Shown: in pieces, positions 17,444-42,525 of the stretch
How positions within the stretch are numbered: position 1 is the stretch's first letter
Layout of the letters: every line of letters begins with the position of its first letter
Assembly (NCBI GenBank): GCA_030651765.1
Contig: JAUSBY010000005.1
Location: 186,001-250,000, forward strand
Length of the DNA stretch: 64,000 nt
DNA from: Coriobacteriia bacterium
GTDB lineage: Bacteria; Actinomycetota; Coriobacteriia; Anaerosomatales; Anaerosomataceae
Direction: 5' to 3'
Made by a program: the position numbers and the translations under genes
The notes under the pieces: model-generated
What the model saw: the letters and a program-made list of their open reading frames with translations, nothing else
The model's database searches: none
Told to the model about the DNA's origin: nothing

Positions 17444-18187
17444 TTACGCCGAGCTTCCGAGGTACGCGGTCACGACCTCGTGGTTGGTGCGCACCTCGGC
17501 GGGTGTGCCCTCGGCGATCGTCTTCCCGTAGTTGAGTACGTGCAGCCGCGCGCACAGGTTCATCATGAGGCGCATGTCGTGCTCCACAACGAGGAGTCCG
17601 ACGTGCTTGCGCACGGGGATGTCACGCAGAAGCTCGAGCAAGGCATCGCTCTCGTTCTCATTGAGGCCGGCCGCCGGCTCGTCGAGAAGCAAGAACTTCG
17701 GCTTCATCGCCAGCGCGCGCGCGATCTCGAGTTTGCGCTGATGGCCGAAGGGTAGCTCGCTTGCAAGGCTCGACGCCCACGCGGCGATGCCCATCTCCTC
17801 GAGCAGATCGCTCGCGATGGATACGGCCGCTTTGCGAGAAGAGCCCTGGCTCACCGCGGCGACCTCGACGTTCTCGAGGACCGAGAGCTCCTTGAACAGC
17901 CGGATGGTCTGGAACGTGCGGGCGAGCCCCGCACGTGCCACCCGGTGTGGGGGCTTCTTGGTGGTCTCCACCCCGTCGACGATCACCGAGCCGCTCGTGG
18001 CGCGCAGCAGACCGGTCACCACGTTGATGAGGGTCGTCTTGCCGGAGCCGTTGGGGCCGATGAGGCCGAGTATCTCGCCGGTGGAGAGCGTGAAGCTCAC
18101 ATCGTCGACGGCCTTCAGCCCGGCGAACGACTTGCAGAGCTTGCGGATCTCAAGAACGCTCGTGCGGTTCTCGTCGCGCGGTTCCAT
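17444..18187 (-). CDS. LivG-type ABC transporter ATP-binding protein
   Basis: A 247-residue ATPase partner of the LivF-type protein. It has LCKSFAGLKAVDDVSF, Walker A GPNGSGKTT, the LARTFQTIRLFKELSVLENV stretch characteristic of LivG/BraF proteins, signature ELPFGHQRKLEIARALA, Walker B FLLLDEPAAGLNENES and LLVVEHDMRLMM with the switch histidine. It is separated from the binding-protein gene by about 118 bases that contain a strong hairpin. It is the first of five closely packed genes ending in the acetamidase. Confidence 0.95.
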   Translation of the reverse strand: MEPRDENRTSVLEIRKLCKSFAGLKAVDDVSFTLSTGEILGLIGPNGSGKTTLINVVTGLLRATSGSVIVDGVETTKKPPHRVARAGLARTFQTIRLFKELSVLENVEVAAVSQGSSRKAAVSIASDLLEEMGIAAWASSLASELPFGHQRKLEIARALAMKPKFLLLDEPAAGLNENESDALLELLRDIPVRKHVGLLVVEHDMRLMMNLCARLHVLNYGKTIAEGTPAEVRTNHEVVTAYLGSSA

Positions 18188-18236
18188 GCAGGTCTCCCGT
18201 GCCAGTCTGTCACGCGGTCAGTGCCTTGGGCAGCGC

Positions 18237-18268
18237 CGGGGGAGAGCCCAGGACCGGGCCCTCCCCCG
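18237..18268 (-). terminator. intercistronic hairpin between binding-protein and LivG genes
   Basis: CGGGGGAG-GCCC on one side and GGGC-CTCCCCCG on the other can form a 12-13 bp GC-rich stem. It lies 38 bases past the stop codon of the binding-protein gene and about 50 bases before the LivG-type gene. Such hairpins often attenuate transcription or stabilise the upstream message so that binding protein is made in excess. Confidence 0.6.
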
Positions 18269-18305
18269 CTCATCACAGGTGAAGCGACGTGCGTAGAACC
18301 TGACC

Positions 18306-19517
18306 TTACGGGGCCGGGATGCTGTCGGGGATGACCCAGCCGAGGAAGTTCGGCTCGCCCTTGATAAGCTCCACCATCGCGGCGGCCTTGTTGGGCTCGT
18401 GGCCGGAAGCGGCGTCAGACCACTCCAGCGTACCGGTGAAGAGATCGAACGTGTTCTCCTCCATGGCCTTTGCGACCTCGGCGCCATCGGTGGTGCCGGC
18501 GATCTCCATGGCCTCGGCCAGAAGCATCACGACGTCGTAGCCCGGCATGATCCAGACCGCGTCGGGTGCGTCGCCGAACTTGGCCTCGTAGCGCTCCGCC
18601 CAGCCCGAGTAATCGGGGTTGGCTTCGTCAGACAGGAAGCCGTGGGTGTCGAAGTAGACGTCAGAGCCGTACTGCTCGCCGAGAGCCTCAAACAGGCCCG
18701 GATCGTCGTAGGCGTCGCCACCGACGACCGGCTGGGTGACACCAGACTCGCGCAGGGTGCGGATCATGAGCGCAAGGTCGGGCATGTACGACGAGATGTA
18801 GATGAAGTCAGGCTGCTCGGGGAGCGCCTTGATGCGGGCGAGCTGCGCGGAAACGTCAGCCTGGCCCTGCGTGTAGGTGTCCTCGAAGAACACCTCGCCG
18901 CCGAGGCTCTCGAAGTGAATGATGAAGTAGCGCGAGAGGCTCTTGGTGTAGTCGATGAAGTCATCGGTGATGACGTAGACGGTACGCCACCCCTTCTCGT
19001 TGTACGCGTACTCGGCAGTCACGGCGCCCATCGTGGTGTTCCACATGGACATGGTGAACTGCTTGTCGCCGAGAGCGGCCGACCCATACAGGGGCGAGGA
19101 CGCACACGGCGAGATACCGACGATACCGGCGTTCTGGGCCTCGCGGGAGGCCGGGCCGCCGAAGTCGAAGTCGGACGGGGCGATGATTGCCGCCGCGCCC
19201 TGCTCCACGAGCTGCTTGGCGACGTTACCCACGGTCACCGGGTCGCTCTTGCCGTCCATGGCAACAAGCTTGACCTGCTTGCCGAGGATGCCGCCCGCGG
19301 CGTTGAGGTCGTCGACCGCGAGCTGTGCGCCACGAAGGGCCGGCTCGTCGAGCGGAGCCTGGATGCCGGTCTGGCACAGGGCCGCACCGATGATGATCTC
19401 GTCGCCTTCAACGGCGCCGTCGTCGGTGCCACCGTTGGTGCCCTCGTCACTGGCGCACCCGGGCACTACCAGGGCCAGCATCAACACAAGAACGAGCGAA
19501 CTTGCCAATCGCTTCAT
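18306..19517 (-). CDS. ABC transporter substrate-binding lipoprotein (branched-chain amino acid/amide type)
   Basis: A 403-residue periplasmic-binding-fold type I protein. The N-terminal MKRLASSLVLVLMLALVVPGC is a lipoprotein signal with Cys21 as the lipidated residue. It is followed by a low-complexity Gly/Asp/Thr linker. The mature domain has IIIGAALCQTGIQAPLDEPA, GAQLAVDDLNAAGGILGKQV, AAAIIAPSDFDFGGPAS and GIVGISPCASSP, all typical of LivJ/UrtA/FmdD-class receptors. ATG at 19517 follows CGGAGGGTGATGGT. First gene of the transporter-acetamidase operon; amide rather than leucine binding is inferred from that context. Confidence 0.93.
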   Translation of the reverse strand: MKRLASSLVLVLMLALVVPGCASDEGTNGGTDDGAVEGDEIIIGAALCQTGIQAPLDEPALRGAQLAVDDLNAAGGILGKQVKLVAMDGKSDPVTVGNVAKQLVEQGAAAIIAPSDFDFGGPASREAQNAGIVGISPCASSPLYGSAALGDKQFTMSMWNTTMGAVTAEYAYNEKGWRTVYVITDDFIDYTKSLSRYFIIHFESLGGEVFFEDTYTQGQADVSAQLARIKALPEQPDFIYISSYMPDLALMIRTLRESGVTQPVVGGDAYDDPGLFEALGEQYGSDVYFDTHGFLSDEANPDYSGWAERYEAKFGDAPDAVWIMPGYDVVMLLAEAMEIAGTTDGAEVAKAMEENTFDLFTGTLEWSDAASGHEPNKAAAMVELIKGEPNFLGWVIPDSIPAP

Positions 19518-19713
19518 ACCATCACCCTCCGTTGTGGTTGCGGGCGCTCGTCCTGCGGCTTACCTCCAGCCGGACCGCCGAACACGCCCTTCTGTGCGTC
19601 TGGTGCAATGATGCGCCGTTCTCGGTGCCACTTCGTCTCGCAAAGGATAGCGAATCAGAGGCCGCTGTGCCAGGAAGGGTGATGCAGGAGAGTCAAGGGG
19701 GCGCGAGACGCGA

Positions 19714-20532
19714 TCACCTATCCTGCGCCCATCCACGCTGGCGCAAGACGGAGCCGACGGTCTCCCGTTCCACCATCCAGGCCTGATCCGGCTCCAGAAG
19801 GAACCGCTCAACGTCTGCAAGTACACCATCCCACGGGGCAGCGTACAACCGCTCACTCAGCGCACGCCGCCACAATCCACCCTGAAGATCACTTCGGCCA
19901 CCTTGTTCCAATGCGGCGGACAGCAAGCGCTCGTTGGGCTCAGGCCACTGAGGATCGCTGAGATACCACACGAGGTCGTAGACGTCTCGACCTTTCACCC
20001 ACTCGCGCATCAGCAGCGCCGCGATCTTGCCTGCAAGAAGCGAAGCACGGTCATGGTGCGCGATCCGGAGCGTCACGTACCGCCTCACGAGGCTCGACTC
20101 GAGGCCGGCCCCGGCAGGTGGATTGGTGTCCACCTCGATCTTGACGCTGAACACGGCATTGATGTGGGGGCTCAGTCCAAGCTCGTGCGGCAACCCCGGG
20201 AACCGAACGAACGCCTTGTTCACGGTCGTCCGCGTGGCCGTCTTGGTCTCGCACTGATACTCCTCCTTGAGAAAACGTGCGCGGACCGCTTCCAGGAGAC
20301 CCTCGAAGTCATAGCCTGCCTCGGCGTTCTCGAGCGAGAAATCCAGGTCCTCTGAGAATCGCGGAATCTGATAGAGGAACCGCAGCGCCGTCCCGCCCAT
20401 GAAGGCCACTGATGTCCACGCGTCCTGAGCCTGCATGACCTCGAGAACGCGCGCCTGCAGATACTCGCGCATGATGTTCGTCCGCATTGGAGCTGGCGCG
20501 GCTTGCACGATATCTTTCAGGTAGTCTTTCAT
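19714..20532 (-). CDS. AbiEii-type nucleotidyltransferase toxin
   Basis: A 272-residue protein of the AbiEii/AbiGii toxin family, the toxin half of type IV toxin-antitoxin and abortive-infection systems. The nucleotidyltransferase-like core is visible: FMGGTALRFLYQIPRFSEDLDFS at about residues 44-66, with the D-x-D pair at 62 and 64, and a downstream VKGRDVYDLVWYL motif holding the lysine-aspartate pair of the family. Known relatives transfer nucleotides to tRNA or other targets. It overlaps the antitoxin gene by four bases, so the pair is coupled. No truncation or frameshift is visible. Confidence 0.9.
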   Translation of the reverse strand: MKDYLKDIVQAAPAPMRTNIMREYLQARVLEVMQAQDAWTSVAFMGGTALRFLYQIPRFSEDLDFSLENAEAGYDFEGLLEAVRARFLKEEYQCETKTATRTTVNKAFVRFPGLPHELGLSPHINAVFSVKIEVDTNPPAGAGLESSLVRRYVTLRIAHHDRASLLAGKIAALLMREWVKGRDVYDLVWYLSDPQWPEPNERLLSAALEQGGRSDLQGGLWRRALSERLYAAPWDGVLADVERFLLEPDQAWMVERETVGSVLRQRGWAQDR

Positions 20533-21170
20533 TCCCCTTCGAACTCCCCCCCCTCAAGTGACGCAAGGCGCACCACCCTGGCAGCGAACCGAGCGACCTT
20601 GGGGCTCTCGAAGCGCTGCGCAAAGGTGTGCAGGCGCTCCAGATCCAGCACCCCCAGGTGTTGCAGTCGTAGCGAATCAACGAACGCCCGCTGGTCGGAG
20701 TAGGCCCGCAGGTACGCCATGTCAAGAAGCGCCTTCTCGGGTAGTGCCACGAACGCGGTCCGACCGGGCGCGATCTCCCGGGCTTCGTAGCCCCAGAAGA
20801 GCGCTCCCTTGACATGCTGATACAGGAACTGTCCAAACCGGGTCCGAACAACACCTTGCTTACCTGTGGTGACCGCTGTGGTCACAACAACAGCCTCGGG
20901 GATAAGGCCCATCTCGCCCAGGACAGTCTCGAGACTCACATACGAGCCCGGCGCCAGCCGATTGGAAATCTCGTACGGATGCGGCTCGATACGCCGATGT
21001 TCGTCGCCGAGGACGTACAGGCCTCTCCGGAGCTGAACCACAAGTCCTTGCGCCACCCAGCGTGACAGTTGCTTGCGGATGTTCGCGGAATCGATACCGG
21101 GTCCGAGGAGCATGCCGGTCGTGAACATCGGCTCCTGGGCAACAATCTCTGCAAGTTCCTGCCGTTTCAT
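20529..21170 (-). CDS. AbiEi-type antitoxin / transcriptional regulator
   Basis: A 213-residue protein upstream of, and overlapping, the AbiEii-type toxin gene. The N-terminal about 60 residues form a winged-helix unit (LLGPGIDSANIRKQLSRWV, LVVQLRRGLYVL), followed by an AbiEi C-terminal domain with PGSYVSLETVLGEMGLIPE and PEKALLDMAYLR. In the known systems the protein both neutralises the toxin and represses its own promoter. ATG at 21170 has no strong Shine-Dalgarno site; instead the repeat element at 21176-21201 lies immediately upstream. Confidence 0.88.
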   Translation of the reverse strand: MKRQELAEIVAQEPMFTTGMLLGPGIDSANIRKQLSRWVAQGLVVQLRRGLYVLGDEHRRIEPHPYEISNRLAPGSYVSLETVLGEMGLIPEAVVVTTAVTTGKQGVVRTRFGQFLYQHVKGALFWGYEAREIAPGRTAFVALPEKALLDMAYLRAYSDQRAFVDSLRLQHLGVLDLERLHTFAQRFESPKVARFAARVVRLASLEGGEFEGE

Positions 21171-21175
21171 GGCGC

Positions 21176-21201
21176 TAACTTACCATTCTTGGTAACTTAC
21201 C
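21176..21201 (-). promoter_or_regulatory. repeat element, candidate AbiEi operator
   Basis: The 9-mer GGTAAGTTA (minus strand) occurs twice, at 21193-21201 and 21176-21184, offset by 17 bases. Between and overlapping them, TTACC-N6-GGTAA (21180-21195) is an inverted repeat. It begins six bases before the antitoxin start codon, the position expected for an autorepressor site that would cover the promoter or ribosome entry. Confidence 0.6.
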
Positions 21202-21280
21202 GCCACCAAGTGCGGTGCGAACCGCTCCGTCTACTCCAGTAGTAAATGCAATCAGTCCCGGCCACCGTCCAGCGGGCCCC

Positions 21281-22213
21281 TCAGCTCTCCGCGTACTCCA
21301 CATACCACCGGTACGTGCTCTCGATCCCCTCACGCAGCGCTATCGACGACCGCCAGCCGAGCGCGGTCAGCCGCGAGACGTCCAGCAGCTTGCGCGGCGT
21401 GCCGTCGGGCTTGGAGGTGTCGTAGACGATCTCGCCGGTGTAGCCCACAACCTCGGCGATGAGCGTGGCAAGCTCGCCGATGCTCACGTCGGTACCCGTC
21501 CCCACGTTCACGATCTCGTCGCTCTCGTAGCGCTCCATCAGGAAGACGGCAGCGTCGGCCAGGTCGTCAACGTGCAGGAACTCGCGGCGCGGCGTGCCTG
21601 TCCCCCACACCGTCACGGTGGTCTCGCCTGCCGCGTGCGCCTCATGGATCTTGCGGATGAGCGCGGGCAGCACGTGCGAACTCGTCAGATCGAAGTTGTC
21701 GCCCGGGCCATACAGATTGGTGGGCATGAGGCTGATCGCGTCAAAGCCGTACTGCCGTCGGTAGCTCTGCGCCATCACGATCCCGGCGATCTTGGCCACC
21801 GCGTACGGCTCGTTGGTGGGCTCGAGCGGCCCGGTGAGCAGGTACTCCTCCTTGAGCGGCTGCGGCGCGAGCTTGGGGTAGATGCAGCTGCTGCCGAGGA
21901 ACAGGAGCTTGCGCACGCCTGTGCGATGGGCCGAATCGATGACGTTGGTCTGCACCTGGAGGTTCTCGCGGATGAAGTCGGCCGGGTACGTGCTGTTGGC
22001 CATGATGCCGCCCACCTTGGCGGCGGCAAGGAACACGTACTCCGGACGCTCACTCTCGAGAAACGCGCGCACTGCGGCCTGGTCCGTGAGGTCGAGCTCG
22101 GCACGTGTGCGCGTGACGATCCCGCCAAGCCCGTCGCGCTCGAGCCTGCGCACGATAGCCGAGCCCACGAGCCCGCGGTGCCCGGCAACGTAGATGCGGC
22201 TCGTTCTATCCAT
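21281..22213 (-). CDS. fcl: GDP-L-fucose synthase
   Basis: A 310-residue short-chain dehydrogenase/reductase that epimerises and reduces GDP-4-keto-6-deoxymannose to GDP-L-fucose with NADPH. It begins [20 protein letters not shown] and has the family segments [32 protein letters not shown], the catalytic YAVAKIAG, and [13 protein letters not shown]. The frame is open beyond 22213, but ATG 22213 gives the canonical N-terminus and overlaps the gmd stop by eight bases, so translation is coupled to gmd. Confidence 0.95.
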
Positions 22214-23252
22214 GCCTGACGCTCCTAAGGCCGACCGTGTGCCCGGCGTCGGTGAGTGTCTTCTCCTGCGCGGCAAGCTCGAGGTCGTGCGCCACCATCC
22301 GCCGCACCAGCTCGGCGAAGTCCACCTTGGGCGTCCAGCCGAGCTTCTCGCGCACCTTCGTGGCATCGCCGAGCAGGTGGTCCACCTCCGTGGGGCGGAA
22401 GTAGCGCGGGTCGATCTCCACGTGCTCCTGCCAGTCCAGGCCGACCTCGGCAAAGGCGGCCTCAACGAACTCGCGCACCGAGTACGCCGAGCCGGTGGCC
22501 ACCACATAGTCGTCCGGCGCATCGGCCTGCAGCATGAGCCACATAGCCTCCACGTAGTCCGGCGCGTAGCCCCAGTCGCGCTTGGCGTCCAGGTTGCCGA
22601 GGTAGAGCTTGTCCTGCAGGCCGTGCTTGATGCGGCCGACCGCGCGCGTGACCTTGCGTGTGACGAACGTCTCGCCGCGGCGCTCCGACTCGTGGTTGAA
22701 CAGGATGCCGTTGGCGATGAACATTCCGTACGCCTCGCGGTAGTTCACGCAGTACCAGTAGCCGGCCAGCTTGGCCACGGAATACGGACTCCTCGGGTAG
22801 AACGGCGTGGTTTCGCTTTGCGGCGGCGCCTGCGCGCCGAACATCTCCGACGAGCCCGCCTGATAGACGCGCACCGGGCTACCGGTGGTGTCGCAGTAGT
22901 CGCGCACCGCATCGAGCAGACGCAGCGTGCCGGTTGCCACCACGTCGGCGGTGTACTCGGGCTGATCGAACGAGACCATCACGTGCGACTGCGCGCCGAG
23001 ATTGTAGACCTCCTGCGGTTGCACCTTCTCCAGCACGCGGCGCAAGCCGGTGCCGTCGGTGAGGTCGCCGTAGTGCAAGAACAGGCGCGCGCCGCTCTCG
23101 TGCGGATCGCGGTAGATGTGGTCGATCCGGTCGGTGTTGAAGGTGGATGCCCGACGGATGATGCCGTGGACCTCATACCCCTTCTCGAGCAGCAGCTCGG
23201 CTAAGTACGAGCCGTCCTGGCCCGTGATGCCGGTGATCAGTGCCTTCTTCAT
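22206..23252 (-). CDS. gmd: GDP-mannose 4,6-dehydratase
   Basis: A 348-residue dehydratase that converts GDP-mannose to GDP-4-keto-6-deoxymannose, the step before fcl. Motifs are [19 protein letters not shown] (NADP site), [11 protein letters not shown], the active-site [10 protein letters not shown] and [20 protein letters not shown], and [17 protein letters not shown] 23252 (MKKALITG) follows GGAGGAG by about six bases; a start seven codons earlier is less likely. No mannose-1-phosphate guanylyltransferase gene is seen in this window, so GDP-mannose must come from elsewhere. Confidence 0.96.
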
Positions 23253-23294
23253 GAGGACTCCTCCGGAGCGCATATCGTCACCGCAAGCATGGTA

Positions 23295-24098
23295 TCAGGT
23301 GTCCGAGCGAGGGAGCGGAGCCAGCTTGCGCCCGTACCGGAGCACGTCCCACATGAAGAGCGTATTGCCCACCAGGTAGCGCTTCCACATCCGCCCCGGC
23401 TCTGAGAGCAGACGGTGCACCCACTCGACGCCGGCCCGCCGCATCCACTCTGGCGCCCGGGACTTGCGTCCGGTGCCGAAGTCGAACGCGGCACCTACGC
23501 AGACGATCGGCATGCCGAGCTCGTCTGCGTGCTCGTACGCCCAGATCTCCTGCTTCGGTGCGGAGACCCCCATGAACAGGATGCGCGCGCCGGAGGTCTT
23601 CACGGCCTCCACGAGAGCGCGGTTGTCCTCAGCCGACCACTCGCCGAAGGGCGGCGTGGCAGTACCGGCCACGATGAGGCCCTCGTGGCGCGAGCGCAGC
23701 GCGTCGGCGAGGGAGTCCGCCACTCCTTCTGCGCCGCCGAGAAGGAAGATCGGGATGTCATCATTGGCAGCCCTCGCACAGACCGCTTCCATCAGGTCTG
23801 GGCCCGGACAGCGGCCGATATCGCCGTAGCCGAGGAGTCGGGCGGCGTAGGTGACCGACGCGCCATCGGGCAGGTTCACGCAGCGATCGGTGTCGGCGAG
23901 TAGCGCGGCGTACGGAGGGCTCTCTCGACGGAGCTTGGCCGAGTGGGCGTTGACGAGGACGTAGACGACGGGCGTCGCGTCTCGAGCGCGAGCAGCCACC
24001 TCCGTGGCCGCGTCGTGCGCTCCCGCGCCCCGCATACCTACCCCCGCTACCGTGCTCAACCCCACGTCGTCCTCAGCTCCGCTCCCTCGCTGCTGCAT
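23295..24098 (-). CDS. WecG/TagA/CpsF family glycosyltransferase
   Basis: A 267-residue GT26 enzyme. These transfer ManNAc (TagA, wall teichoic acid) or ManNAcA (WecG, common antigen) to lipid-linked GlcNAc. Family motifs seen are NAHS, INLPDG-type VNLPDGASVTYAARLLG, PGPDLMEAVC, FLLGGAEGVA, the strongly conserved ILFMGVSAPKQEIWAYEH and GVGAAFDF-like VCVGAAFDFGTG, then RAPEWMRRAGVEWVHRLLSEP. I prefer ATG 24098 with GGGGA eight bases upstream; a GTG at 24122 is possible. With wecB in the window a UDP-ManNAc donor is available, favouring TagA-like activity. The protein may also need a C-terminal membrane-contact tail, which is present (RMWKRYLVGN). Confidence 0.9.
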   Translation of the reverse strand: MQQRGSGAEDDVGLSTVAGVGMRGAGAHDAATEVAARARDATPVVYVLVNAHSAKLRRESPPYAALLADTDRCVNLPDGASVTYAARLLGYGDIGRCPGPDLMEAVCARAANDDIPIFLLGGAEGVADSLADALRSRHEGLIVAGTATPPFGEWSAEDNRALVEAVKTSGARILFMGVSAPKQEIWAYEHADELGMPIVCVGAAFDFGTGRKSRAPEWMRRAGVEWVHRLLSEPGRMWKRYLVGNTLFMWDVLRYGRKLAPLPRSDT

Positions 24099-24258
24099 CG
24101 TCACGTCCCCAGGGTAGCGCACCGGCTGGCCAACTGCGGTGGCGTGAGGCCATCAAGTGACATAGCATTCGTGCCGACCTAACTTTAGTAATGGTCGCTC
24201 GCCGATACACTGCGCCCACAGCCCTTCAGACACGCGCGGCAACACGAAGGAGTCACCC

Positions 24259-27108
24259 ATGAGGAACGGCCGCCGGTTCATCCTAGCCCTCGTGCTCGCA
24301 GTCGTTCTGGGGCTCGTGGCCCCGACCATGGCACACGCGCTGATGCTTCCAATGAGCGTTGAGCAGCTGGCCGAGGAGGCCGACGCGATCGTTGTGGTCA
24401 AGGTGCTGTCGTCTCAATCGCGCAAGCCCGCTAAGGCCGCCGAGCCCTTGGCGGTCTACACGGACTACCGTCTGCAGGTGACGCGGGTACTCAAGGGTGA
24501 TCGCCCACGCGCGCTCACGATGACTCAGCCGCATGGCCGAATCGGCAATCTGGTACAAGTGACCACTGACCTGCCCGAGTTCACACCCGGAGAGCAGGCG
24601 GTCCTGTTCCTCAACGCCTCAAACGAGGTCTACGGCGGCTGGCAAGGCAAGCTCTCGATCGAGAAGGGTCGCATTCCCTCCCTCGACATCAGCGTCGAGG
24701 AGTTCGCCCGACAGATCAGCACCGACACGCTTGCGCCAGCCGTTGAGCTCGCACAAGCGCCCGCACCCAACCCTGGCACGCGAGCGCCGCGAGTAGCGCG
24801 CAAGAGCCTCGACACGATGGTCGGTTCCGCGATCTCGAGCGCCATCGGCGCGCTGGCTACCACTACCCCGCTCAACTCCGACTTCGAATCCGGCACGAGC
24901 GGCTGGTCGATCGGCACCTACACCGCCGGCGCACCCACATGGGGACGCACGAACTACCGCGCGGCGGCAGGGACGTGGTCGCTGTTTGGCGCGGGATCCG
25001 GTACGGGCGCGGTGGTTCCACCGGCCTACATCCCCGAACAGGTCCACGCCGGCGCCTGGACAACCAACCCCGTCGACCTTTCGGGCGCCACACTCGCCGA
25101 TCTCGAGTACGACGTCTGGACCCATCTCACGATGTCCGGCACCAACTGGGTGGCCGTCGAGGTGGCCACATCCACGAGCGGCCCGTGGTACTTCGCCGAC
25201 AACGGCTACCAGATGGGCACCACATCGGGCTGGAAGCACTTCACGGTGGACCTGCGTTCGGTCACCGACGCATCCACCGGTGACAACAAGTCCTTCGTGG
25301 GCGAATCGACGGTCTACGTGCGCTTCCGCTTCTCCCACACCACTGGCACCACCGACTACGGCGCCTTTATCGACAACGTTAAGATCACGGCCGAGACGGG
25401 CCCGGCTCCGACGGTCACCGACGTCACGCCCGCGGGGGCGAACGCCGGCATCGGAGAGACGGTCACCATCACTGGATCGGGCTTTGGCGCCACCGCCGGC
25501 AGCGTGCACTTCCAGAAGGGCGACTCACAAAGCAGCAGCGACTACGTCACCGCATCGATCGTCTCGTGGTCGGACACGAGCATCACGGCGACCGTGCCAC
25601 AGCTGGCCGCAACATGGGTGCGCGTGAACGCAGCCGACGGCAAGAACTCCGGCACAGTTGCCTACACGACGGGATTCAGCACCAACGGGCGTCGTTGGAC
25701 TGGCCTTCCTGTCTCCTACCGAATCAACGAGAACACCGCCGATATGACCGGCGAGGGTGCGGCCATCCAGGCGGCATTCCCCACCTGGAACGATGCCGGC
25801 TCCCAGTTCGCACTGTCGTACGCCGGGACCACCACCAAGACCGGGGCGGCCTTCGACAGCGAGAACACGATCTCCTTCGTCAACGACACGGCCAACACGT
25901 ACCTCGGCCGCAACACCTACTGGTACTACGCGACTACCCCGCCCACCCTCATCGAGTCGGACATCGTGTTCAACGACCGCTACCTGTGGGCCAATAGCAC
26001 TGCGGGCGGAGCTATCGACGTGGAGAGCGTGGCACTCCACGAGCTCGGGCATACCGTTGGGCTCGACGATCAGTACCTCGAGTACGCCGAGGTCATGAGT
26101 GCGTATACGGGCGAAGCGCAAAGAGCGCTCAGCCCCGCCGAAGCGGCGGGCGCCATCCACCTGTACGGCGCCGACCTCACACCCCCGGGCGTGCCCGCGA
26201 TCACATCGGACAGCCATCCCGATTCGGACACGTGGGTTGCGGACAACTCGGCATCGTTCTCGTTTGAGACGCCCGACGCCGCAGCGTACTCGTACGTGCT
26301 CGACCAGTCCGCCGGCACGGTCCCCGACACCACGGCCGAGGGTGCCCAGGCATCGGCGACCATCGATTCTGTGCCCGACGGCGAGAGCTACTTCCACGTG
26401 CGGGCGCAGGGCGCCAACGGCGTTTGGGGTGATGCGGCGCACTACAAGATCCGCGTGGACACTGAAGCACCGACGACCACATCCGACGCGCTCACGCAGT
26501 ACCTCCGCACCGCGACGATCACCCTCACCCCCACCGATGCACACGCCCAGGTGGCTGCAACGTACTGGCGACTCGATGGTATCGGCGAGTGGCAGAGCGG
26601 CACGACGGTCACATCCGATGCGCCAGGCGAGCACACGCTGGAGTACTACTCCGTGGACTACGCTGGCAACACGGAGACGCCTGTCGAGGCGGCGTTCTCC
26701 GTCGAGACCCCTGATCGCTTCGAGCAGACCGATCCCGGCATCGCGTACACCGGCACCTGGAACACCTGGAACTACGCACCGCTCTCGGGCGGCTCGTACG
26801 CCTACACCTACACCAAGGATCGCGCGATCACCGTCGTCTTCGAAGGAACCGGGATCGACTGGATCGGCACGATCGCACCGACATGCGGCATCGCGTCGGT
26901 GAGCCTCGATGGGGGTGAGCCGGTCATCGTCGATCTCTACAACCCCACCGCGATTCACAAGCACCGCGTCTGGGGCTCGAGTGGCCTGGACGACACGGTC
27001 CACACCCTCACGATCACCGCGAACGGTACACGCAACGAATCGTCGACCTCCAGCGGCGTCAACGTCGACGCGTTCGACATCCTCGGCGAGCTGATGACAC
27101 CCCCGTAG
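24259..27108 (+). CDS. large secreted matrixin-like zinc metalloprotease with TIG and beta-sandwich domains
   Basis: A 949-residue exported protein. The signal peptide (residues 1 to about 27) precedes a domain with EEADAIVVVKVLS and VLKGDRP found at the N-terminus of some matrixin-type proteases. Then comes a MAM/immune-inhibitor-A-like sandwich (about 205-375, NSDFESGTSGWSIGTYTAG), an IPT/TIG domain (about 378-470, VTDVTPAGANAGIGETVTIT), and the catalytic domain with H594-ELGH-TVGLDD, the HExxHxxGxxD zinc site. Two Ig-like units and a C-terminal beta-sandwich of possible carbohydrate-binding type follow. ATG 24259 follows GAAGGAG. It is the only plus-strand gene inside the polysaccharide locus. 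Substrate unknown; no sortase motif or membrane anchor. Confidence 0.88.
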   Translation: MRNGRRFILALVLAVVLGLVAPTMAHALMLPMSVEQLAEEADAIVVVKVLSSQSRKPAKAAEPLAVYTDYRLQVTRVLKGDRPRALTMTQPHGRIGNLVQVTTDLPEFTPGEQAVLFLNASNEVYGGWQGKLSIEKGRIPSLDISVEEFARQISTDTLAPAVELAQAPAPNPGTRAPRVARKSLDTMVGSAISSAIGALATTTPLNSDFESGTSGWSIGTYTAGAPTWGRTNYRAAAGTWSLFGAGSGTGAVVPPAYIPEQVHAGAWTTNPVDLSGATLADLEYDVWTHLTMSGTNWVAVEVATSTSGPWYFADNGYQMGTTSGWKHFTVDLRSVTDASTGDNKSFVGESTVYVRFRFSHTTGTTDYGAFIDNVKITAETGPAPTVTDVTPAGANAGIGETVTITGSGFGATAGSVHFQKGDSQSSSDYVTASIVSWSDTSITATVPQLAATWVRVNAADGKNSGTVAYTTGFSTNGRRWTGLPVSYRINENTADMTGEGAAIQAAFPTWNDAGSQFALSYAGTTTKTGAAFDSENTISFVNDTANTYLGRNTYWYYATTPPTLIESDIVFNDRYLWANSTAGGAIDVESVALHELGHTVGLDDQYLEYAEVMSAYTGEAQRALSPAEAAGAIHLYGADLTPPGVPAITSDSHPDSDTWVADNSASFSFETPDAAAYSYVLDQSAGTVPDTTAEGAQASATIDSVPDGESYFHVRAQGANGVWGDAAHYKIRVDTEAPTTTSDALTQYLRTATITLTPTDAHAQVAATYWRLDGIGEWQSGTTVTSDAPGEHTLEYYSVDYAGNTETPVEAAFSVETPDRFEQTDPGIAYTGTWNTWNYAPLSGGSYAYTYTKDRAITVVFEGTGIDWIGTIAPTCGIASVSLDGGEPVIVDLYNPTAIHKHRVWGSSGLDDTVHTLTITANGTRNESSTSSGVNVDAFDILGELMTPP

Positions 27109-33753: not shown

Positions 33754-34829
33754 CAGCTGGCCCCGTCGAGCAAGCTAGCAGAACCCAACCACGGATTGGA
33801 AACCGCTCTCCCGGCTGATCCGGCTAGGAGCGAACCAGCCACATCGAGCAAGTACCCGATGATCGCGTCGCAACCAAGAGATGAGACTGCTAGCTCGCGC
33901 TCACGGTCACTAAGCTCTCTCAGCTCGTGTTCAGATCGCTCAAGCAACCAGTCGATCGCCCTATCCGCTGAGCCGACCTTGTCGAAGAACTGACTGCAAC
34001 TCATTCCTGGCAGGATCTCCTTGCGACCGATGAAGGACTTCTGCGCGAGAGGGACTCCCGACGCCAGCGCGATAGGGAGCCGATTGGAGAAGTAGAACGC
34101 TCCCGACACATGATCGATTCCAACTGCGACTCGGGACCTGGCGTAGATCTCAGGCACATCACTGAAGGAGCAGCGGCCACGAGCGCCGATGCCCTTCCAG
34201 CCCGCGCCGTAGATAGCTAGACGGCTGCCATACCTACGCTGCAAATGCGAGACGAGATCGGCTCGTTCACGCGCGCCGGGTATCCGCCGCACACGGGAGC
34301 GAACGTTGTTGCCTATGAACACGACGTCAGACTCGAAGTCGTTTGTCTCCTGCCAGGACCTGCTGAACCTCTCATAGTTCACCCACGACGGCGCATACAC
34401 CACACGCTTCACGCCGACCTGCGTCAGGAGCCGGGGCATATACCCGTCGGAACAAAGCGCTGCCGCATCACACCGGCTTACCGTTGGCAGCGCCCACCGA
34501 GGGTAAGGTATGCGCCAACCCGCGAACGCATCGCCCTCCGAATAGAACCATACGGCGGACGCCGATGCCGCGCGCATTCGATCCACCCCCGAGGGCGTGA
34601 ACCTGCAGCTGCCTGAATTGCAGAATATGACAGTGTCCGGCTGGGACTCACGAATCAGATCAGCGACCTCCAGCGCGGCACCATTCGGTCCAAGTTCGCG
34701 GACCCGCGCTGGGGTTGAATAGACTTCGTACTCAGCAACCGATCCCTTGTCGCGTAGTCTGCTGAGACCCCATCGGATATCGGGATCGCTGTTCGGAGTA
34801 GCCTCGTTCGACAGTGCAAGAATCCTCAT
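33753..34829 (-). CDS. CgeB-like glycosyltransferase
   Basis: A 358-residue GT-B-like protein with similarity to the spore-coat CgeB/family 1 type. Recognisable stretches are AVWFYSEGDAFAGWRIPYPR, CSDGYMPRLLTQVGVKRVVYAPSW, DVVFIGNNVRSRVRRIPGAR, LAIYGAGWKGIGARGRCSF and VAVGIDHVSGAFYFSNRLPIALASG. It overlaps the flippase gene by four bases (ATGA) and the next GT4 gene by one, so translation of three genes is coupled. I cannot name donor or acceptor. Confidence 0.8.
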   Translation of the reverse strand: MRILALSNEATPNSDPDIRWGLSRLRDKGSVAEYEVYSTPARVRELGPNGAALEVADLIRESQPDTVIFCNSGSCRFTPSGVDRMRAASASAVWFYSEGDAFAGWRIPYPRWALPTVSRCDAAALCSDGYMPRLLTQVGVKRVVYAPSWVNYERFSRSWQETNDFESDVVFIGNNVRSRVRRIPGARERADLVSHLQRRYGSRLAIYGAGWKGIGARGRCSFSDVPEIYARSRVAVGIDHVSGAFYFSNRLPIALASGVPLAQKSFIGRKEILPGMSCSQFFDKVGSADRAIDWLLERSEHELRELSDRERELAVSSLGCDAIIGYLLDVAGSLLAGSAGRAVSNPWLGSASLLDGAS

Positions 34830-41023: not shown

Positions 41024-41098
41024 TGGTGGGCCCAGCAGGATTCGAACCTGCAACCAAGGGATTATGAGTCCCCTGCTCCACCGTTGAGCTATGGGCCC
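41024..41098 (-). tRNA. tRNA with CAU anticodon (Met elongator or Ile2)
   Basis: A 75-nt cloverleaf with encoded CCA. The acceptor stem is GGGCCCA/TGGGCCC, the D-arm GCTC/GAGC, the anticodon arm GGGGA-CTCATAA-TCCCT (anticodon CAU) and the T-arm GCAGG-TTCGAAT-CCTGC. It lacks initiator features, so it is elongator Met or a lysidine-modified Ile2; I cannot decide which. Its first ten bases overlap the end of the integrase gene, and its CCA is 15 bases before the amidase start codon. Confidence 0.95.
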
Positions 41099-42240
41099 GG
41101 TCGGGTCACGTCAGAACCGCCATCTAAGGCGGGTACAACACCGCTTCGTGCCACCAACTCGCCCATGATACCAGCATCGCGCAGCCGGGCACGGTGCATC
41201 GGCTTGGCGTAGTGATCCAGGAAGAAGGCCGCCGAGTGGTGCCCGAGCCGCGCGCTCACCGCCTCCGGGTCCGCTCCTGCGGCGAGCGCCAGAGACCCGG
41301 ACGTGGCGCGCAGGTCGTGGAAGCGGCACTCCAGGCCCTGGGCCCGCGCCCAGACGCGCCAGGCGCTCGAGAACGAGTCCGGCCACCATGGCCTCCCCCA
41401 CCGGTCGCAGACGAGCAGTTCGCCCCAGGACAGCACGGTCCCGTCGGCGCGCACCGCAGAGGTCTGCCACGCGGCCTGCACCCCTGCACGACGCACCTCC
41501 CGGCTGGCGAGATCGGCCCGGAGTAGCGAAACCACCTCGGGCGGGATATCGACGTAGCGCTCCTTGCCCGACTTGGGCCATCCACGCATACGGTACCGCT
41601 CGACCGGGTCGCGGCCGCGTGTCGGGTCGTCACTCTTGTCCCATGCGCGGCAGACGGTGATGAGTCCCAGACCACGCGTATCGTCGGCGGGGGGAAGCGC
41701 GATATCGGCAACGTCGAGAGCGAGGATCTCGCCGCGACGCATCCCCGTGACGAGCGCGAGCACCGCCGGCACGAACAGCCGCGCCGCTCGCCCCTCAGCG
41801 GCACCGAGTGAGGCGAGCACCGCCTGTGCCTCCTCGGGCTCGAGCGCACGCACACGCCTGCGGCGCGTCCGCGGCCTGTCCACCCCTTGCCCTTTGGCGA
41901 GCACGTTCCGCTCGATGCGCCGCAGGGCGACGGCTCGGTCGAGCGCCATGCGGAGCGTGACGTGCGTCAGCTCCCGGGTGCGGACGGAGAGTCCCTGCCC
42001 GCCCGCTGCGACGGGAGCGGCCATGGCGTGATACATCGCGGTGATGTCCTCGGCAGAAAGCCCGCCGAGTTCGATCGGGCCCAGATGCGGCTTCAGGTAG
42101 CGGCGCACGTGGCCGCGGTAGGCCGTGACCGTGGAGGCCGCAAGCTCGCCGCTTGCCCCCCGCGGCTCGATATGGACGGCGAGCCACTCGTCGAGCCACT
42201 CACCGACCGTCTGCGGATCGCGCTTGACCGTCCTGTGCAT
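41089..42240 (-). CDS. tyrosine-type site-specific integrase
   Basis: A 383-residue phage/ICE-type integrase (from ATG 42240; a GTG at 42273 would give 394). It has an N-terminal arm-binding region, a SAM-like core-binding domain (VTAYRGHVRRYLKPHLG) and a complete catalytic domain: Arg in VTGMRRGEILAL, Lys in KSGKERYVDIP, His-x-x-Arg in FHDLRATSG, His in RLGHHS and the nucleophile Tyr in FFLDHYAKPMH. Its last codons and stop (GGC CCA TAG) are tRNA bases. No excisionase, replication or cargo genes are beside it, so it is an orphan, either a remnant of an integrated element or a domesticated recombinase. Confidence 0.92.
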   Translation of the reverse strand: MHRTVKRDPQTVGEWLDEWLAVHIEPRGASGELAASTVTAYRGHVRRYLKPHLGPIELGGLSAEDITAMYHAMAAPVAAGGQGLSVRTRELTHVTLRMALDRAVALRRIERNVLAKGQGVDRPRTRRRRVRALEPEEAQAVLASLGAAEGRAARLFVPAVLALVTGMRRGEILALDVADIALPPADDTRGLGLITVCRAWDKSDDPTRGRDPVERYRMRGWPKSGKERYVDIPPEVVSLLRADLASREVRRAGVQAAWQTSAVRADGTVLSWGELLVCDRWGRPWWPDSFSSAWRVWARAQGLECRFHDLRATSGSLALAAGADPEAVSARLGHHSAAFFLDHYAKPMHRARLRDAGIMGELVARSGVVPALDGGSDVTRPGP

Positions 42241-42392
42241 CCATCCCCACTCATCACCGTGCCTGTAGGACACGCATCCGGGCGCACGATCGTACGCTCG
42301 GGCACTTAACCGTCACGCAAAGGGATGTGAACTGCCCGGCCGACGGTCGTTCGCGGCAGGACTGCTGGAGAGAACCGGCGCTGCCCCGACGG

Positions 42393-42420
42393 TTGCAGCC
42401 GCTGGAGCGCCTGCTATAAT
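42393..42420 (+). promoter_or_regulatory. predicted promoter of tRNA-Asn
   Basis: TTGCAG (42393-42398), 16 bases, then a consensus TATAAT (42415-42420). It ends 29 bases before the tRNA 5' end. Confidence 0.7.
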
Positions 42421-42449
42421 CGCGAGGCGTCGAACAGGCGCGACCACAC

Positions 42450-42525
<76 letters not shown>

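Follow-up and report, generated by a model that had tools for sequence, protein, structure and literature searches.

The gene pair abiEi-abiEii, carried on the minus strand of the 64,000-nucleotide stretch of DNA analysed here (the window), is very probably an AbiE operon that is autorepressed through a compact dyad doubling as its core promoter, with a leaderless abiEi mRNA and AbiEii as the toxin. We infer AbiEi binding, leaderless transcription, repression and AbiEii toxicity; the principle of autorepression is already known, and the geometry of the dyad is a variant layout. In the mechanism proposed, two AbiEi molecules would occupy a 36-bp dyad, one to each arm by way of its recognition helix, and bound AbiEi would cover the -35 element, the -10 element and the start site together, thereby repressing its own promoter. 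The antitoxin would be translated from a leaderless mRNA, and the toxin from a ribosome-binding site within the 3' end of abiEi, by way of an overlapping start. As AbiEi falls, the promoter would open, and free AbiEii would be expected to halt growth. The result is a model of an AbiE operator in this bacterial group, drawn at the sequence level and open to testing; should the ordinary part alone hold, the window adds a further AbiE system whose operator is clearly delineated.

The gene pair and its products

The window pair is an AbiE-type (type IV) toxin-antitoxin operon, as proposed in an earlier note on this DNA and borne out by the PF13338/PF08843, PADLOC and fold matches. The antitoxin gene comes first: abiEi (20529-21170, minus strand) encodes a predicted autorepressor of 213 residues (PF13338, E = 7.9e-08; PADLOC AbiEi, 2.1e-48), and its stop codon overlaps the start of abiEii (19714-20532, minus strand) by the ATGA at 20529-20532. 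The 272-residue product of the latter is a predicted nucleotidyltransferase toxin (PF08843, E = 9.7e-23, 81.8 bits; PADLOC AbiEii, 1.9e-59). The PF13338 match of AbiEi exceeds the Pfam cut-off; against the NCBIfam equivalog NF047376 (TAA_AbiEi) the protein scores 54 bits, under the curated cut-off of 150, and so is not filed there.

The AlphaFold (AF2) model of AbiEi (mean pLDDT 92) places a winged helix at approximately residues 1-55, with a predicted recognition helix at 28-41, ahead of a C-terminal antitoxin domain. It matches the solved structures of Streptococcus agalactiae AbiEi (6y8q; Z 12.0, rmsd 5.6, 189 aligned; Foldseek E = 2.0e-06) and Rv2827c (1zel; Z 9.3, rmsd 4.2, 189 aligned; Foldseek E = 2.7e-03). 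Fold comparison alone succeeded here, as a sequence-profile search for a solved AbiEi relative returned nothing convincing (best E 0.24). Residues 61-199 of the model also align to the toxin MenT1 (8an5; Z 8.6, rmsd 3.9, 134 residues), and the antitoxin domain looks as if it may be related to the toxin nucleotidyltransferase fold; PMC7319586 reports that DALI matched the S. agalactiae AbiEi with adenylyltransferases. The AbiEii model (pLDDT 96) finds its top fold match in TglT/Rv1045 (6j7q, E = 2.9e-07), one of the TglT/MenT toxins, to which it is alike in fold at an identity of about 16%, and the sequence profile leads to the Helicobacter pylori nucleotidyltransferases 4o8s and 4ok0 (E of about 1e-4). 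With motifs I-IV taken as described in PMC3985639, the ten residues checked in the window copy (G46, G47, R58, D62, D64, K169, R176, R182, D183 and D186) are all intact, in agreement with what had been read from the letters. The spacing between motifs I and II is x14 in the window AbiEii and x15 in the S. agalactiae toxin (PMC3985639).

The full-length frames of both window genes, the ten intact motif residues and a dyad that outscores every one of 2000 shuffles together make it unlikely that this AbiE copy is decayed or silent, with its operator left as a relic. The family does give that reading some footing, as the toxins at 2 of 30 aligned loci (L035, L037) and that of genome G131 are without one catalytic aspartate, and the motif I glycine is changed in L039 and L065, so decay or divergence occurs among relatives; the -35 element of the window is also weak. 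An operon with working components remains the preferred reading for the window. At each of these relatives with an altered toxin, namely L035, L037 and L133 (G131), where one of the two catalytic aspartates is missing, and L039 and L065, with the changed glycine, an antitoxin and operator are present. In G131 a stretch of N in the assembly breaks the antitoxin (L047), and an apparent internal deletion of that antitoxin was rejected, the gap being this N-run.

A compact inverted repeat at the antitoxin start

The predicted operator (21170-21205, minus strand) is a 36-bp inverted repeat, TGGCGGTAAGTTACCA-AGAA-TGGTAAGTTAGCGCCA, with arms paired at 14/16 positions across a spacer of 4, and it ends on the A of the abiEi start codon. 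The palindrome of this leader outscores 2000/2000 dinucleotide shuffles. Both sequence patterns that the earlier note had drawn from the leader are present, the TTACC-N6-GGTAA palindrome and two exact copies of GGTAAGTTA placed 17 bp apart (21193-21201 and 21176-21184, minus strand); the gap from the second copy to the ATG is 5 bases, rather than the six given. The half-sites are the inverted arms, with centres 20 bp apart, or about two helical turns, in place of the direct repeats at one-and-a-half turns that had been put forward as suited to cooperative binding. AbiEi cooperativity is reportedly treated in a 2018 paper in J Mol Biol.

The direct repeat itself, with its copies 17 bp apart, is highly improbable as the binding unit. 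It is exact (9/9) in the window only and reaches 8/9 in two of the nine other leaders nearest to it, but retains just 5-7 of 9 positions in the remaining seven, whereas the inverted repeat keeps 11-15 of its 15 pairs in all ten, and relatives of 42-49% identity have other letters at these positions with the dyad centre kept. One natural leader (L025) has the dyad intact and the direct repeat broken. Within the 64-kb window, GGTAAGTTA with at most one mismatch occurs 4 times against 1.13 expected, a count reached in 2/100 shuffles, and these matches include an overlapping plus-strand copy (21191-21199) and another at 34502; the pattern GGTAAGTTACC-N(4-8)-GGTAAGTTA has a single occurrence genome-wide. 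The exact direct repeat is a by-product of the two arms, each of which is nearly a palindrome in its own right (GTAA-S-TTAC). As judged from the leaders, the unit kept in evolution is evidently the 36-bp inverted repeat, rather than the direct repeat. The autorepression operator anticipated for this leader thus stands as a conserved cis-site of that form at the antitoxin start, and falls as regards the direct repeat as its functional unit; likewise, absence of the repeat from orthologous loci, named beforehand as grounds for refutation, is true of the exact direct repeat and false for the dyad, which persists.

Conservation of the dyad among relatives

Protein searches with AbiEi found relatives in 49/296 genomes of the class (E ≤ 0.001), 24/69 of the order (E ≤ 1e-20) and 33/396 of the phylum (E ≤ 1e-10), sets that overlap, to which a search of further genome contigs added 19 named loci. 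Two extra phylum searches gave one new match (G654, L102) and loci for two known matches (L103, L104), all outside the leader alignment. Palindromes were sought in 82 distinct leaders over 70 bp upstream of the ATG. The leader alignment holds 37 members with AbiEi identity of at least 40% and an aligned start, L034 and L047 being left out for their unplaceable starts; one leader (L068) is a run of N and was counted in the 37-leader paired fractions and not in the 36-leader counts. In the protein alignment L028 was omitted, its frame continuing into another gene. Ten leaders with AbiEi identity of at least 57% form the near group, and the 27 others lie at 42-49%.

The 36 leaders align on the ATG without gaps and share a common symmetry centre at -17.5, where the paired fraction is 0.70 over the 37 leaders, 0.85 in the near group and 0.64 in the 27 others; at other centres from -40 to -10 it is at most 0.39 overall and, among those printed, up to 0.44 in the near group. 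Watson-Crick pairs number 376/540 in the 36 leaders, compared to 320.7 ± 6.7 (maximum 340) in column shuffles, a significance that is overstated because the leaders share ancestry. G-T pairs are depleted, at 35 in the 36 leaders vs 55.9 ± 3.5 in column shuffles, which speaks for a dyad in DNA rather than a hairpin in RNA. Indeed, an RNA hairpin in a longer transcript, hiding the abiEi start codon and exerting translational control instead of or besides a DNA site, is a quite improbable account of the symmetry: the leader as RNA does fold at -21.7 kcal/mol (z = -6.2 vs shuffles), but the pairs that RNA would tolerate as G-U are those depleted, no Rfam family reaches its gathering score within 18000-25000, and the dyad contains -35/-10-like hexamers spaced by 17 bp and would therefore be mostly untranscribed.

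The DNA dyad is also recovered from individual leaders. When the centre was allowed to vary, 18/45 leaders of at least 37% identity gave a palindrome at p ≤ 0.05, all 18 centred at -17.5, and the single-sequence dyad is not significant in the other 27/45. Below 37% identity, 12/37 leaders reach p ≤ 0.05, none at -17.5, and these were not counted as support; as the distant leaders have other centres, the compact layout belongs to this subfamily. In a fixed window, 39 leaders of at least 37% identity with an aligned start gave -17.5 as the unique best centre in 28, tied in 6 and not best in 5. The leader of Ornatilinea apprima (L002, Chloroflexota, 38% identity) has the same dyad centre, at p 0.36 when taken alone and tied with -22.5. 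The clade pattern TAASTTACCA-N4-TGGTAASTTA, allowing at most 2 mismatches, occurs in 10/69 genomes of the order with one site each; all 10 sites end 5 bp before an abiEi start, and the reversed control finds none in the 69 genomes. Such sites are confined to abiE loci in these 69 genomes at that stringency, and therefore no wider regulon was seen.

No sign of a phage- or plasmid-borne clade appeared in the viral-contig and plasmid collections, the former holding 2 distant AbiEi relatives (33% and 26% identity) and the latter 22 records, all under 60% identity, one of which covers at least 80% of the AbiEi query. In genome G141, the AbiEi frame (L028:1501-2403) extends to 301 residues with the operator kept and no AbiEii match in the locus; its C-terminal extension is read as HicB-like, and the whole frame is without a Pfam match at 1e-5. 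The archaeal AbiEi relatives L016, L019 and L020 (Thermoproteota) carry a GTAACAGATCTGTTAC palindrome some 10-13 nt before the assigned start, itself uncertain, and these leaders suggest that such dyads extend beyond this clade, in another geometry.

Predicted promoter elements and a predicted leaderless mRNA

Column conservation places a predicted -35 element, TGGCGG in the window (21200-21205, minus strand; TTGCAG-like in relatives), at -35..-30 inside the left arm, and a predicted -10 element, TAAGTT (21177-21182, minus strand; CATATT-like in relatives), at -12..-7 inside the right arm. The layout accordingly reads -35-like hexamer, 17 bp, -10-like hexamer, 6 nt and ATG. The group of 42-49% identity has TTGCA at -35..-31 (T24, T20, G24, C25 and A18 of 27), with A at -11 and T at -7 in 26/27 rows, the remaining row being N. 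In the near group, these positions read TRGCR at -35..-31 and TAASTT at -12..-7, and its -35 versions (TGGCGG, TGGCAG and TAGCAG) are weak, which leaves the more distant relatives as the basis for assigning the promoter. The TTGGTG hexamer suggested earlier as a -35 element is indeed present (-39..-34), yet it is not conserved and stands 21 bp from the -10; the conserved -35-like hexamer lies 4 bp further in.

Standard sigma-70 spacing places the transcription start relative to the -10 element. With the latter only 6 nt from the ATG, transcription would start at about the A of the ATG itself. Pairing with the anti-Shine-Dalgarno sequence amounts to -2.9 kcal/mol in the window abiEi leader, which is also the median of the 36 leaders (strongest, -6.5), and to -10.0 kcal/mol for abiEii and -3.5 to -11.4 kcal/mol for four liv-type genes of the window. 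As the -10 element is six nt from the ATG and the leader shows no convincing Shine-Dalgarno sequence, the abiEi mRNA is predicted to be leaderless.

Comparison with characterized AbiE systems

For both S. agalactiae AbiEi and Rv2827c, inverted repeats that overlap the promoter have been proven (PMC3985639, PMC7319586). The S. agalactiae system (6y8q; PMC3985639) resembles that of the window in its antitoxin-first operon, in the same overall winged-helix fold of the antitoxin, in a nucleotidyltransferase toxin with motifs I-IV, and in inverted repeats that overlap the promoter, with its 17-bp spacer and TTGC in the outer left arm. Its operator is arranged as 11 bp-N27-11 bp, with 23-bp half-sites 3 bp apart and 49 bp in total, and transcription starts 26 nt before an ATG that is preceded by a ribosome-binding site (PMC3985639). 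The window operator differs in having 16-bp arms about an N4 spacer, 36 bp overall, which end on the ATG, and in being predicted to yield a leaderless mRNA. The Rv2827c-Rv2826c pair of Mycobacterium tuberculosis (1zel) likewise has an AbiEi-type autorepressor and promoter-overlapping repeats, and its operator comprises four 23-bp repeats (two inverted pairs) within -1 to -131, and its C-terminal domain is larger than that of the window AbiEi (PMC7319586). In the window, a systematic scan of the 70 bp upstream of the ATG found a single compact dyad. Among open-licence papers, no account was found of the operator of this clade, of a leaderless abiE or of AbiE pairs at polysaccharide loci, nor was AbiE biochemistry found for this bacterial group.

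Residue 33 and two operator bases

Residue 33 lies within model helix 28-41, by position the recognition helix of the winged helix, and comparison of the proteins with their leaders suggests that it tends to co-vary with two operator bases, imperfectly and as a lead. The right-arm bases that correspond to -23/-22 are AC in 10/10 K33 rows, GC in 12/18 R33, AT in 2/2 L33 and 3/6 S33, and AA in the single V33, while the left arm at -23/-22 itself reads AC in 7/10 K33, GC in 8/18 R33, GA in 6/6 S33, AT in 2/2 L33 and AA with V33. A scan of residue-by-base mutual information did not single out the recognition helix, with residues 83, 66, 88, 87 and 85 ranking above residue 29 and several more above 32 and 33; shared ancestry therefore dominates, and reliance is placed only on switches in the tree. 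L004, L071 and L073 were omitted from both the scan and the tree comparison. One such switch is L033, where K changes to R inside the K clade and the left arm reads GC, the right arm still AC. Another sets L045 (R, GC/GC) beside L023 (S, GA/GA) at a fork of support 99/96, and a third is the K33 of L059 and L062, outside the main K clade, with AC in the right arm and GA in the left.

The exceptions are several. All six rows of one R33 clade (L060, L061, L063-L066) have GA in the left arm, R33 occurs with AC in the right arm of L033 and L065, and further R33 rows show GG with AA or AG (L044, L055, L058) and CC with AG (L046). Among K33 rows, the left arm is GA in L059 and L062 and CC in L027, and the right arms of S33 rows are variously AT, CG, GG or GA. 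Even so, the 36 operators with their matching repressors make up a natural series from which a recognition code could be read.

Genomic neighbourhood

On one side, the window pair is flanked by an NAD-dependent epimerase/dehydratase gene that itself adjoins a GDP-mannose 4,6-dehydratase gene, the two being read as fcl and gmd, and on the other side by a transporter operon of a periplasmic binding protein and ABC ATPases. In the same-genus genome G075, the junction retains fcl (96%) and the binding protein (95%), and between these the genome encodes a UDP-glucose dehydrogenase and an AAA_14/DUF4143 ATPase; homology to the window ends just past fcl and resumes just ahead of the binding-protein gene. 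The ATPase gene (L087:1557-2732) is located at the junction that abiE holds in the window. Elsewhere, abiE follows fcl in G005 and gmd in G045, precedes gmd in G057 and separates gmd from fcl in G013; in G028 and G016 it lies between the transporter and, respectively, a sugar transferase and a UDP-GlcNAc 2-epimerase, and in G069, G079 and G111 it adjoins homologues of the window 2-epimerase, cell-wall-binding or Wzz-domain genes.

Polysaccharide genes are a recurrent neighbour of abiE loci, and the earlier remark that the pair lies between metabolic and polysaccharide genes proved informative. With 16 proteins of the window polysaccharide locus as queries, a match at E ≤ 1e-30 was found in 13/19 abiE regions, one of which is the window itself and several of which hold pairs of shared ancestry, vs 1/40 control regions, hand-placed at roughly regular steps in 9 of the same genomes. 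Contig ends cut the flanks of 7/19 abiE regions; those with full flanks have a match in 9/12. The match in G073 and one of two in G045 are epimerase homologues near 30% identity.

AbiE systems can confer phage resistance and stabilise plasmids (PMC3985639), and by analogy the window pair may act in phage defence or in stabilisation of the polysaccharide locus. A broader reading, tentative and on balance doubtful, is that of a clade with leaderless antitoxin mRNAs, in which operator and core promoter would coincide in a single symmetric stretch of some 36-38 bp that finishes at the start codon, with specificity switched chiefly through residue 33 (at -23/-22, AC for K, GC for R, GA/AT for S, AT for L and AA for V), and which would be a repeated tenant of the surface-polysaccharide locus, guarding phage-receptor genes or addicting the cell to them. 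If true, switching of specificity at residue 33 would allow paralogous pairs within the same cell to remain insulated from each other. The neighbourhoods also offer a reason to look for defence or addiction genes at surface-glycan loci.

A second abiE pair of the same genome (G000 C5:31700-33141; L023, L127:6701-8142) is 44% identical to that of the window and has no polysaccharide-type neighbours. Its palindrome is 17/17 paired about a spacer of 6 and includes the start codon (CATTGCAG...CTGCAATG), and this symmetry therefore yields a mirror-image promoter and a CAT on the other side. In genome G069, a 9.5-kb contig (C20; L123) carries two different abiE pairs that flank a UDP-GlcNAc 2-epimerase homologue matching in two pieces. 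Elsewhere in the window, at 41024-42525, a tRNA-Met, a phage-integrase-family gene (PF00589) overlapping the end of that tRNA-Met, and a tRNA-Asn lie together as the possible remnant of an integrated element.
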